Assembly: GCA_017544805.1 (NCBI GenBank) | Contig: JAFYDK010000124.1 | Coordinates: 1-34,592, forward strand | Source: Bacteroidales bacterium | GTDB taxonomy: Bacteria; Bacteroidota; Bacteroidia; Bacteroidales; UBA3824 | DNA: 34,592 nt | Direction: 5' to 3' | Part shown: positions 24,927 through 28,816 of the stretch, in pieces | How the letters are laid out: each line of letters begins with the position of its first letter | How positions within the stretch are numbered: position 1 is the first letter of the stretch | Notes under the pieces: model-generated | What the model was told of the DNA's origin: nothing | The model's input: only the letters and a program-made list of their open reading frames with translations | The model's database searches: none | Made by a program: the position numbers and the translations under genes

Positions 24927-25610
24927 TTAATAACTTGTATTCGGGGAATAAGTTTTCGGCTTTATTGAATTTCTCTCCGTTATGTATTTGGAATATTTTT
25001 CGTCGACATCCATGCGGGATTTTACAGCTTCAGGATATACATCAAGAGCGGCTAACAATAATTCTGTAACCTCTCTCACTGCAAACTCCTCTCCCGAAGA
25101 AAACGTTACGTAATCCGCTAAATGATTATCTTTTACATAATCGCTAAACATAGGAGCAGATTTGCGGTGAATTTGAAACCTTAAACCGCATTTTTCAGCA
25201 ACCGTCAAGTCCAAAATATCGTCGAAAACAAACGCAATTTCTTGAGGTTTCAACGAAAATTCTTTCATAACCTCTGTTAAGCCTTCAATCTTATTTTTAA
25301 AACCTAAACATTTGAAATTCAAGTGTTCACGGTTCACAAATTTTTCCGTTGAAGGGTTGTTTTCGCCGCTTATAATGCCAGAAATAAGAAGATTTCCACT
25401 AAACAAAGTATAACCGAAGCGCAAAATGTTAAGCCCCATGGAATCAACTTCCGAAAAGCCTGAATAAACATTGTCGCCCTTTACGCCAGAATTGAAAACT
25501 CCGTCCCAATCAAATATTATCGCCTTAATTTTCAAGGCTTTATTCTTAAAATCAGAAAGGGGAATTAAAAACTCCCCTCCCCTATCTTCAAATTTTTTTA
25601 AATTTCTCAT
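24927..25610 (-). CDS. KdsC-like HAD phosphatase with extended termini
   Basis: A 227-residue HAD-superfamily protein. Motif I is IIFDWDGVFN (D34, D36), an SGENN segment fits motif II, and FVFDDILDL (D130, D131, D134) fits motif IV. A short cap and the SEVDSMGLNILR segment after motif I match KdsC, which hydrolyses Kdo-8-phosphate to Kdo. It is longer than the usual 170-180 residues: 27 extra N-terminal residues before the first strand and about 35 at the C-terminus. Its ATG directly follows the stop of the transaldolase-CBS gene with no gap, so translation is coupled. Being the third gene after kdsA supports a Kdo or related ulosonic-acid phosphatase. Confidence 0.8.
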   Translation of the reverse strand: MRNLKKFEDRGGEFLIPLSDFKNKALKIKAIIFDWDGVFNSGVKGDNVYSGFSEVDSMGLNILRFGYTLFSGNLLISGIISGENNPSTEKFVNREHLNFKCLGFKNKIEGLTEVMKEFSLKPQEIAFVFDDILDLTVAEKCGLRFQIHRKSAPMFSDYVKDNHLADYVTFSSGEEFAVREVTELLLAALDVYPEAVKSRMDVDEKYSKYITERNSIKPKTYSPNTSY

Positions 25611-26618
25611 TTACAACAAATCTTGAATATCCAACATACCGCAAGGTTTGCCGTCAGAGGTTACGACCAAAGTGTCAATTTTGTACTGCTTGAAGAGTTT
25701 TGACGAATCAATCAAATAAGCCTCTTTATCAATCGTAACAGGTTGTTTTTCAGGAAGTTGAGAAAGTTTTTTCGTTAAAACTGAATCGCCTTCTTTTTCA
25801 ACCAAACGTCTTAAATCACCGTCAGTGAAAACACCGTAAATGTTTCCGTCTTCTTTTACAACCGTTACTGCACCGAGTTTTGATAGTGTCATTTTTACCA
25901 AAGCCTCGTTGATAGTGCTGTTGAAAGAAATACAAGCGTTTTCCGTACGGTAAACGTCTTTAACTTTCATTGTCATAAGTCTTGTATCTTCAAAGAACTG
26001 CTCTGTGCCGAGGGTCGTGAAATTGTTTTGCGGCAAAAGTTGAAGAACTTTCCACGGAACTGTTATCGTATGACAGCCGATATTCAAAGCGTTTCTTACG
26101 TGTTCGGGGTTACGAACCGAAGAAAACATAATTTTTGAAGGATAACCGTATTTATTAACAGCATTAACGCACTGTTCTACAAGCGATAAGGCATCGTGTC
26201 CCTGATCTTGAAGTCTGCCGACCAAAGGACAAACGTAGGTTGCACCGGCCTGCATTGCAATATAAGCCTGCTGAATCGTATAAATAAGGTGCATATTAAC
26301 CATATAACCCTCACTTCTAAGAATATGACAAGCCTTTGCGCCTTCCAATGAAACCGGAATTTTGTAAACGGTTTTATTCTTGTCAAGTCCTAAATCGTTC
26401 TGACGGTGAGCCTCGGAAATAATTTCATCAGAGGTTCTGCCCAATGCTTCAATCTGAAGGATAGGAACAATTTTTGAAAGTTTTAAAATTATGCTGTCAA
26501 CATCGTTGTAACCTTCACGGTGCATAAAAGTCGGAGTCGTTGTAAGACCCGTCAAAAAGCCTAATTTAAAGGCGTTTTCAATTTCAGGCAAATTAGCCGA
26601 ATCAAGATATAATTCCAT
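25611..26618 (-). CDS. Transaldolase/F6P-aldolase-like domain fused to a KdsD-like CBS pair
   Basis: This 335-residue protein joins two known modules. Residues 1-212 are a transaldolase (TalC/FSA-type) barrel: LYLDSANLPEIENAF, GLTTTPTF, the Schiff-base lysine K86 in VYKIPVSLEGAKA, and IMFSSVRNPEHV. Residues 217-335 are two CBS domains; GVFTDGDLRRLV and LVVTSDGKPCGMLDIQDLL closely resemble the C-terminus of KdsD/KpsF/GutQ arabinose-5-phosphate isomerases. The SIS isomerase domain of KdsD is absent. The gene lies between kdsA (14-base gap) and the KdsC-like gene (no gap). I infer a role in supplying or controlling a precursor for the KdsA reaction; the actual reaction is not proven. Confidence 0.9.
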   Translation of the reverse strand: MELYLDSANLPEIENAFKLGFLTGLTTTPTFMHREGYNDVDSIILKLSKIVPILQIEALGRTSDEIISEAHRQNDLGLDKNKTVYKIPVSLEGAKACHILRSEGYMVNMHLIYTIQQAYIAMQAGATYVCPLVGRLQDQGHDALSLVEQCVNAVNKYGYPSKIMFSSVRNPEHVRNALNIGCHTITVPWKVLQLLPQNNFTTLGTEQFFEDTRLMTMKVKDVYRTENACISFNSTINEALVKMTLSKLGAVTVVKEDGNIYGVFTDGDLRRLVEKEGDSVLTKKLSQLPEKQPVTIDKEAYLIDSSKLFKQYKIDTLVVTSDGKPCGMLDIQDLL

Positions 26619-26632
26619 TTTTATCTAAATTT

Positions 26633-27460
26633 TTATCTGTATTTAACTTCAATTTCGTGCAATTCGATAAGCGGTTTCAGGAACTCTTCCAATTCGGAAA
26701 GTTTCAACTGACTTGCCGCATCACATTTTGCTTTTTCAGGTTCCGGGTGTGCCTCAATAAAAATACCATCAACACCGCTTGATACGCCTGCTCTTGCAAG
26801 AGTTTTCAAATATTGTCTTGCTCCGCCGTTTGGATCAGCAGAAGGAATTCCGTATTTTCTGATAGAATGCGTAACGTCAAAAACTGTCGGATAACCCGTT
26901 TCGTTTAAATGATAAAAACTTCTCGGATCAACCACCAAATCATTATAACCAAAAGTATAACCCCGTTCGGTCAAAATGATTTTGTCGTTGCCGCAAGCTT
27001 CAATTTTTTTAACGGGTTTAATCATGTTTTCGGGTGCAAGAAACTGCCCGTGCTTGAGATTGATAACAGCTCCCGTTTTAGCAGCTTGAGTTACGAGTCC
27101 CGTCTGCATACAAAGGTATGCCGGAATCTGAATCACGTCAAGAACCTCTGCGGCAGGTTGTATATGTTCGGGATAATGAATGTCCGAGAGAACGGGCATT
27201 TGAAACTCTTTTTTTATCTTTGCTAACATTTCAAGACCTTTTTCTAAGCCCGGACCTAAATAATAATCCACACTCGAACGGTTGTCTTTCATAAACGAAG
27301 ACTTGAAAATCACAGGAAGTGAAAGTTTTTCCGCTGTTTTCTTAACGTGTTCAGCGGTTTTCATCATAATATCTTCGTCCTCAATAACGCACGGTCCGCA
27401 AATCAAAAACAATTTGTCTGAACCGCACTCAATATCAGATACTTTTACTATTTTTTTCAT
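26633..27460 (-). CDS. kdsA: 3-deoxy-8-phosphooctulonate synthase
   Basis: A 275-residue enzyme that condenses phosphoenolpyruvate with arabinose-5-phosphate to give Kdo-8-phosphate for LPS. Motifs are FLICGPCVIEDED near the start, VIFKSSFMKDNRSS, NLKHGQFLAP, TERGYTFGYNDLVVDPRSF, DVTHSIR and FIEAHPEPEKAKCDAASQL. C24 in GPC, the His of DVTH, the Glu of FIEAH and the Asp of CDAASQ form the metal site of class II (metal-dependent) KdsA; class I enzymes have Asn in place of that Cys. It is the first gene of a three-gene operon with the transaldolase-CBS and KdsC-like genes. Confidence 0.95.
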   Translation of the reverse strand: MKKIVKVSDIECGSDKLFLICGPCVIEDEDIMMKTAEHVKKTAEKLSLPVIFKSSFMKDNRSSVDYYLGPGLEKGLEMLAKIKKEFQMPVLSDIHYPEHIQPAAEVLDVIQIPAYLCMQTGLVTQAAKTGAVINLKHGQFLAPENMIKPVKKIEACGNDKIILTERGYTFGYNDLVVDPRSFYHLNETGYPTVFDVTHSIRKYGIPSADPNGGARQYLKTLARAGVSSGVDGIFIEAHPEPEKAKCDAASQLKLSELEEFLKPLIELHEIEVKYR

Positions 27461-27613: not shown

Positions 27614-28816
27614 TTATTTCTTACCGGGAAAACTAATTCTCGGATAACCGCCGCGGTGAATTTCAAATTCCTCTTTTATAGACTTTGAAAGCATATAATC
27701 ATAATCCGAAAAATACTCCCAATACATTATTCCTCCCAAATCATGGATAAAAATATAATCAACTTTCCTTTTAACAGACTGCATATCCTCGTATGAAAGA
27801 AAAATTTTGTCTTGCGGATTGTAAAGCGTAGGCGACAACGCAGACGAATCCCAACTCCTTATATATTTACCCGATTTCAAAAGCGGGGGAATCTGACGGA
27901 AAGCAACCGAGCCAACACCCGTTCCCTTACAAAAAAGTCCGCTATTTACAGCTTCAACATTTTTCCATTTGCGTCCGTAAAAAGCGGCACCTATTATAAT
28001 TTTTTCTTTCGGAATACCGGCTTTATAATAATTTTTGACCACTTTATCAACGCTGTGTCCGTTATGTTTTAAGGATGAAAAATAAAGATTCGTATGATGT
28101 CCCGTAGTCTTGTTCCATTGTCCGAAAAAATCGTATGTCATTACAAAGAAATAATCCGTCAAAGGCTCAATTTTACGTATCTCAGTGTAAGTCAGATACA
28201 TATCAAATGCTCCGGCTGCAACAGTCAAATAATATTTTTTGCCGTCCTGTTTTGAAGCTTTGTCGAATGCAGTGCGCAACTCTGTTAAAAGCGATGTAAA
28301 ATTTACTCTGTCGGTATCTCTGGTTTGAACGTTCATACCCGGAAATTCCCAATCAACATCCACTCCGTCAAGACCGTAATATCTAACAAAACGGATTGCA
28401 TCGTCTACAAAAACCGAACGCGAAGATGCGCTTAGACTCATGTCGGAAAAAACTTTAGAGGTCCCGTAACCGCCTACGGAAACCAAAATTTTCATTTTTG
28501 GGTACAATTTTTTGAGCTTTTTGGCAATCATAAAATTTTGAGCATCCTCAGGACGCAAAAGCCCAATACGATTGTTTGTAATCTTAGTAAAAGCAAGATT
28601 GAGTATATTAACCCCGTCAAGTCTCAAAGAGTTTAAGTCCAATTTACGGTTGCCGATATGCAAATATGCACATATTATAGGTGTCTGAAGTTTTGAAAAA
28701 TTACCCGTAGGTGCAGAATTCAACGCTAAATGCTCATCACCAGAATTAACAAGGCAAGAGACTAAAAATAACGCAGTCAAAACAAACAAAACGATTCTTT
28801 TAAACGGTACAAACAT
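27614..28816 (-). CDS. Glycoside hydrolase family 18 lipoprotein
   Basis: A 400-residue protein with an SPII signal (lipobox LVSC, C21) and a GH18 barrel. The catalytic motif DxxDxDxE is complete: D150, D153, D155 and the acid/base E157 in LDGVDVDWEFPG. Other barrel marks are KILVSVGGYG, LTVAAGAFDMY, YFFVMTYDFFGQW and a C-terminal GGIMYWEY. The family covers chitinases and endo-beta-N-acetylglucosaminidases, so the target is a GlcNAc-containing polymer such as chitin, peptidoglycan fragments or N-glycans; this cannot be decided here. No SusC/D genes are next to it. The promoter is at 28851-28880. Confidence 0.92.
   Translation of the reverse strand: MFVPFKRIVLFVLTALFLVSCLVNSGDEHLALNSAPTGNFSKLQTPIICAYLHIGNRKLDLNSLRLDGVNILNLAFTKITNNRIGLLRPEDAQNFMIAKKLKKLYPKMKILVSVGGYGTSKVFSDMSLSASSRSVFVDDAIRFVRYYGLDGVDVDWEFPGMNVQTRDTDRVNFTSLLTELRTAFDKASKQDGKKYYLTVAAGAFDMYLTYTEIRKIEPLTDYFFVMTYDFFGQWNKTTGHHTNLYFSSLKHNGHSVDKVVKNYYKAGIPKEKIIIGAAFYGRKWKNVEAVNSGLFCKGTGVGSVAFRQIPPLLKSGKYIRSWDSSALSPTLYNPQDKIFLSYEDMQSVKRKVDYIFIHDLGGIMYWEYFSDYDYMLSKSIKEEFEIHRGGYPRISFPGKK

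Follow-up and report, generated by a model that had tools for sequence, protein, structure and literature searches.

A protein that joins a transaldolase-fold domain to a KdsD-type CBS pair very probably takes the place of the isomerase KdsD in a Bacteroidales bacterium (UBA3824) and in many other Bacteroidota, and is predicted from sequence comparison to make arabinose 5-phosphate for KdsA by Schiff-base chemistry. Arabinose 5-phosphate is required for Kdo, and hence for lipopolysaccharide, and the established bacterial source, to our knowledge, is the SIS isomerase KdsD together with its paralogues. The gene was found in a window of 34,592 nucleotides, by which we mean the whole stretch of DNA that was analysed (contig JAFYDK010000124.1 of assembly GCA_017544805.1). 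A search of the open-access literature for transaldolase, arabinose 5-phosphate, CBS domain and Kdo together returned nothing, and no description of the transaldolase-CBS family was found there by title or start of abstract.

The fusion gene and its operon

The fusion gene lies on the minus strand at 25611..26618 and encodes 335 residues. Residues 1-212 (25983..26618, minus strand) form a catalytic domain of the transaldolase/FSA fold, and residues 213-335 (25614..25982, minus strand) form a CBS pair that is of the KdsD type by profile matching and by comparison of structure; for the latter the CBS part was folded alone, the structure matches of the whole model being filled by aldolase chains. 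A Pfam scan found no SIS domain in the protein, and the KdsD profile TIGR00393 covers the CBS part alone. Lys86 (codon 26361..26363, minus strand) is by alignment the Schiff-base lysine, corresponds to Lys85 of FSA and is present in 80/80 fusion loci, here and below the best 80 among the 466 that were confirmed. An artefactual origin of the fusion was considered and rejected.

The gene directly upstream, at a distance of 14 bases, is kdsA (26633..27460, minus strand), the product of which is Kdo-8-phosphate synthase, with 326.6 bits against the NCBIfam TIGR01362 cut-off of 314. Its KDNRSS corresponds by alignment to KANRSS in the E. coli enzyme, and in the KdsA alignment K60, N62, R63 and S64 of this KxNRSS stretch are kept in 45 of 46 rows, the remaining row being incomplete, and the last Ser in 43. 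Downstream, with a gap of 0 bases, follows the gene of a KdsC-like HAD phosphatase (24927..25610, minus strand), which keeps the HAD-motif aspartates, carries a DWDGV motif and has a C-terminal extension with conserved residues; it scores 47 bits, far under the KdsC family cut-off of 107. The sequence-only reading had described both the fusion of an aldolase domain bearing the Schiff-base lysine Lys86 with CBS domains like those of KdsD and its position between kdsA and a KdsC-like gene with gaps of 14 and 0 bases, and both descriptions were borne out. Next to kdsA on its upstream side lies a GH18 chitinase-type gene (27614-28816, minus strand; 249 bits), and such a gene was matched in 6/80 of the best loci.

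The genome to which the window belongs (3.05 Mb in 140 contigs, 90.8% complete) holds kdsB above cut-off (208.8 bits), and the HAD gene of the operon is its sole KdsC-type match (E<=1e-6). No KdsD match was found in it at E<=1e-25. Since kdsA, kdsB and a KdsC-type HAD are present and no kdsD was found, the arabinose-5-phosphate step is the only one of the four steps to CMP-Kdo for which the known enzyme is missing. The SIS domains found in this genome are the two halves of GlmS (613 aa), and the fusion is the sole TAL_FSA member found. A separate kdsD, which the sequence-only reading had named among the findings that would speak against its proposal, was thus looked for in this 90.8% complete genome and not found.

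Distribution of the fusion and of KdsD

The case for replacement is carried by 395 genomes of the class, in which KdsD was called by TIGR00393 at E<=1e-25. KdsD occurs in 225 of them, 202 being above the curated cut-off (the shorter calls of genomes G229 and G237 are 204-aa SIS-only forms under it), the transaldolase-CBS family occurs in 70/395 genomes and 28/197 genera, and kdsA occurs in 287/395. Among the 287 genomes with kdsA, 213 have KdsD only, 64 the transaldolase-CBS family only, four have both and six neither, an exclusion with a Fisher p of 1.2e-51 that overstates independence, the genomes being related; the 108 genomes without kdsA comprise two with the family, eight with KdsD and 98 with none. 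Eight taxonomic families (f4, f10, f12, f59, f62, f68, f91 and f103) each contain both fusion-only and KdsD-only genomes, which implies several events of swapping or of sorting. Three of the four genomes with both belong to a single genus (g269); the fourth is G641, in which kdsA was matched twice.

The six kdsA-bearing genomes with neither KdsD nor the family (G497, G570, G578, G592, G643 and G646) fall in taxonomic families in which the remaining genomes carry one of the two, and four of the six are 60-83% complete. In the two nearest to completeness, G578 (98%) and G592 (95%), there may be a third source of arabinose 5-phosphate, or the absence may stem from assembly gaps.

In a phylum sample the full fusion occurs in only 5/296 genomes, all of the same class (the genome of the window and four others), which counts against the replacement. 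The listing of that sample, short of its last five match-free rows, gave 75 genomes of the same class, the same order included, each at least 95% complete; kdsA is above the family cut-off in 74/75 and there are 70 KdsD matches, two of them 204-aa SIS-only forms under cut-off; the 5/75 genomes in which KdsD is missing are the four fusion genomes and the one without kdsA. From the genomes of the best 80 of 466 loci a further 50, with completeness not given, were chosen for spread before any KdsD result, and 48/50 lack a KdsD-level match. The two that carry a full KdsD as well as the fusion, and that count against replacement as do the four genomes with both in the larger sample, are Chryseolinea serpens and a Sphingobacteriales MAG, and in both KdsD adjoins a mannose-1-phosphate guanylyltransferase-like gene, so named from sequence.

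It is therefore well supported that the fusion replaces KdsD, as the sequence-only reading had proposed from the single operon, with no kdsD found in the genome of the window and a near-exclusion of the two across the class. The same near-exclusion points to arabinose 5-phosphate as the product.

Gene neighbourhoods of the fusion loci

Within fetched flanks of up to 4 kb around the best 80 of 466 loci, a KdsC-like gene was found in 72/80, kdsA in 46/80 and kdsB in 22/80. The other 34/80 have no kdsA within the fetched flanks, some being cut by contig ends, and 7/80 have none of the three genes. In one genome (G189) the fusion, kdsA and the KdsC-like gene are spread over three contigs, and the flanks of the fusion show no Kdo-gene match. 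On the other finding that the sequence-only reading had named as refuting, a fusion away from kdsA in many genomes, the outcome is mixed.

An iron-type dehydrogenase gene in 18/80 and a DegT-type aminotransferase gene in 17/80 of these best loci appear to be KdnB- and KdnA-like, KdnB and KdnA being enzymes for Kdo8N; neither has an NCBIfam equivalog above cut-off. They precede kdsA in L028, L044 and 15-16 further loci, and some Bacteroidota may thus make 8-amino-Kdo. According to PMC5125639, KdnB is a Kdo 8-oxidase catalysing the first step toward Kdo8N, from which it follows that Kdo8N derives from Kdo.

The operon can also be seen in its alternative state. Genome G248, with KdsD elsewhere, has the order aminotransferase, dehydrogenase, kdsA, HAD and kdsB, with 91 bases from kdsA to HAD and the slot of the fusion empty. 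In G090, which has no KdsD, these genes come in the same order, but the fusion is inserted after kdsA and ahead of HAD, and two small genes are added in front of kdsA. Between the dehydrogenase gene and kdsA of G090 (L144:5399-6024, minus strand) there is a putative PIN-type toxin-antitoxin pair. That the KdsC-like HAD is a partner of the fusion only was rejected, as the KdsD genome G248 has the HAD beside kdsA. A KdsC match above cut-off was also seen in 27/55 fusion genomes, in a comparison of 72 chosen genomes of which 55 have the fusion and 17 do not.

An altered active site

The catalytic half was compared with 25 plain transaldolases, those among 30 loci of the phylum nearest to the query. 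D6, E57, K86, N108, R135, S167 and R169 are the same in both groups. Five other positions, T28, H110, C130, L132 and S166, are fixed in 80/80 fusion loci (best 80 of 466), and the plain transaldolases have N, T, S, F and A at those columns in 25/25, so that the changes read Asn28 to Thr, Thr110 to His, Ser130 to Cys, Phe132 to Leu and Ala166 to Ser; in a joint alignment the plain-type Asn28/Thr110/Ser130/Phe132 columns occur in 0/5 fusions against 25/25 plain proteins. In the window, the codon of Thr28 is at 26535..26537, that of His110 at 26289..26291 and that of Cys130 at 26229..26231, all on the minus strand; the first two columns hold Asn and Thr in FSA and TalB as well as in the plain transaldolases, and the third holds Ala129 in FSA and Ser176 in TalB.

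The sequence-only reading had called the domain FSA-type, a label that does not fit. The fusion scores 162.6 bits on the FSA equivalog TIGR00875, under its cut-off of 245.95, and Gln59 and Tyr131, which we take to be the signature of FSA, are replaced at their columns by Glu57 and Leu132 in 80/80 fusions (best 80 of 466). Glu57 is a transaldolase-type Glu, as in 25/25 plain transaldolases. An automatic alignment sets TalB E96, presumably the catalytic Glu of transaldolase, two columns off; alignments with 1vpx, 3s0c and 3r8r and with the plain transaldolases make Glu57 its counterpart. The changed columns match neither FSA nor plain transaldolases, and judged by these residues the catalytic domain is neither an ordinary FSA nor an ordinary transaldolase. 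Of the first reading as a whole, the stand-in for KdsD survives and the FSA label does not.

The pattern of loss and retention is itself suggestive. In TalB, N35 and S176, whose columns are changed in the fusions, presumably hold the C1-hydroxyl of the ketose, there is presumably an E96-water-T156 arrangement, and other transaldolase B residues, which are kept, are taken to contact the hydroxyls at C3 and C4 and the phosphate group. Removal of C1 from fructose 6-phosphate would leave exactly the carbon chain and stereochemistry of D-arabinose 5-phosphate, its carbonyl at the position that Lys86 attacks. With the C1-hydroxyl columns changed and the rest kept, the pattern fits an aldopentose 5-phosphate as the ligand, and a covalent complex of transaldolase with arabinose 5-phosphate has been solved, by the title of 3upb.

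Phylogeny and the CBS pair

A tree was built with every third of the 80 fusions and 14 of 23 short proteins with an EQF-type tail, two of the 14 (P0146 and P0163) looking like cut fusions; the 23 come from 31 short proteins of 205-217 aa among 120 listed of 469. The proteins with the signature form a single clade (100/100), whose branch is very long at 5.8 changes per column. Among the same 120 listed of 469, 21 proteins of 212-214 aa (within P0212-P0239) have the full catalytic signature and no CBS pair, and 12 CBS-less rows form a clade (100/100) inside the fusions. This nesting suggests, on the tree, that the CBS pair was lost in that clade and is not needed for catalysis.

A proposed mechanism and its alternatives

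If the fusion does replace KdsD, an inversion of ribose 5-phosphate at C2 stands at about even chances. Lys86 would react with C1, the aldehyde carbon of ribose 5-phosphate, to give an imine. Either the proton on C2 would then be removed, or a retro-aldol step would split off glyceraldehyde 3-phosphate without letting it leave the enzyme; each would produce a C1-C2 enamine, and C2 would be rebuilt from the opposite face to give arabinose 5-phosphate. Glu57, His110 and Cys130 could serve as acid-base groups, Arg135, Ser167 and Arg169 could hold the phosphate, and the CBS pair may sense an end product of the pathway such as CMP-Kdo, which we take to be the ligand in 4o9k. According to PMC9947464, FsaA joins glycolaldehyde to glyceraldehyde 3-phosphate to give arabinose 5-phosphate and TalB F178Y also yields ribose 5-phosphate, so that one scaffold would reach both C2 epimers through a glycolaldehyde enamine. 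The inversion is favoured by this reach, by a substrate present in every cell, by a two-carbon piece that would stay bound, and by the transaldolase-type Glu together with the missing FSA Gln/Tyr. The fuller proposal, that a Schiff-base ribose-5-phosphate 2-epimerase arose from transaldolase as a new enzyme class, repeatedly displaced KdsD in Bacteroidota and kept the CBS sensor for feedback, is put forward tentatively and falls somewhat short of even. A Schiff-base isomerisation of ribulose 5-phosphate was rejected on chemical grounds, since the outcome of an imine at C2 would be an amino sugar or a break between C3 and C4.

The same role could be filled by another route, the one proposed in the sequence-only reading, in which the fusion joins glycolaldehyde to glyceraldehyde 3-phosphate. 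Free glycolaldehyde is scarce and toxic, and no gene making it was seen among the 16 largest neighbourhood clusters; the absence of FSA Gln59/Tyr131 and the transaldolase-type Glu57 also argue against this route. The Schiff-base lysine is kept, and FsaA of E. coli is reported in PMC9947464 to carry out just this reaction. Granted the KdsD-replacement role, such a condensation is distinctly less probable than not, and over all readings it is rather unlikely.

It is improbable that the fusion is a CBS-regulated true transaldolase or fructose-6-phosphate aldolase feeding the pentose pool, with arabinose 5-phosphate coming from an unseen enzyme such as GlmS acting on ribulose 5-phosphate. Fold and lysine would allow it, and on the genome of the window alone a transaldolase role is possible, the fusion being the sole TAL_FSA member found there; however, G090 and G189 carry a plain transaldolase-type match as well as the fusion, the family tends to occur where kdsD is lacking and kdsA is present, and five columns invariant in 25/25 plain transaldolases are altered. 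As for GlmS, the E. coli kdsD gutQ mutant is auxotrophic despite its own glmS, so that bacterial GlmS does not suffice in E. coli. GlmS is nevertheless the sole SIS protein found in the genome of the window, and PMC11301363 reports that eukaryotic GlmS-type enzymes are able to convert ribulose 5-phosphate into arabinose 5-phosphate by isomerisation, several eukaryotic GFATs rescuing an E. coli kdsD gutQ mutant.

That the fusion supplies some other aldose phosphate toward a ulosonic acid other than Kdo, KdsA having altered specificity, is very improbable: KdnA/KdnB-like genes upstream in 17-18/80 of the best loci indicate that the end sugar can be modified and the KdsA proteins of four fusion genomes have TIGR01362 scores near the bottom of the range (338.6-344.9 bits), but the KdsA of the window is above the Kdo8P-synthase cut-off with its KxNRSS stretch kept, the KdsD genome G248 shares the kdsA-HAD-kdsB operon with a KdsA of 338.8 bits, kdsB is present, and Kdo8N is made from Kdo with KdnB as Kdo 8-oxidase (PMC5125639).

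Implications

If the replacement of KdsD by the fusion is true, 22-24% of kdsA-bearing Bacteroidia (64/287 have only the family, and 68 when genomes that also have KdsD are counted) would use a different fold and chemistry, and so a new route, for a building block that the envelope of these bacteria cannot do without, and a protein now annotated as transaldolase or CBS protein would be an envelope enzyme. Inhibitors directed at KdsD would miss the bacteria that bear the fusion, and metabolic models in which they count as kdsD-deficient could be put right. A natural arabinose-5-phosphate aldolase or epimerase could also be leveraged for two-carbon assimilation, where FsaA is now used.

Comparison with known systems

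With KdsD, KpsF and GutQ, which combine SIS and a CBS pair, the fusion shares a KdsD-type CBS pair at the same end, the same slot in the pathway and a nearly exclusive distribution; unlike them it has no SIS domain, its other half being of the transaldolase fold with a Schiff-base lysine, and it is no aldose-ketose isomerase by descent. With the FSA/TalC/MipB (TIGR00875) and TAL (PF00923) types it shares the fold, the Schiff-base Lys, Asp6, Arg135 and Ser167, whereas it scores below the FSA cut-off, has T28, H110, C130, L132 and S166 in place of N, T, S/A, F/Y and A, and differs in its CBS pair, its Kdo operon and its separate clade (100/100) on a long branch. The eukaryotic GFATs with arabinose-5-phosphate isomerase activity, as presented in PMC11301363, are likewise a source other than KdsD, and unlike the fusion they are isomerases of the SIS fold with no aldolase fold. 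Finally, E. coli FsaA and TalB F178Y, which serve as an arabinose-5-phosphate aldolase in the synthetic pathways of PMC9947464, make arabinose 5-phosphate from glycolaldehyde and glyceraldehyde 3-phosphate with the same fold; theirs is an engineered or side use, whereas the fusion is predicted to be a natural and conserved family tied to Kdo synthesis.
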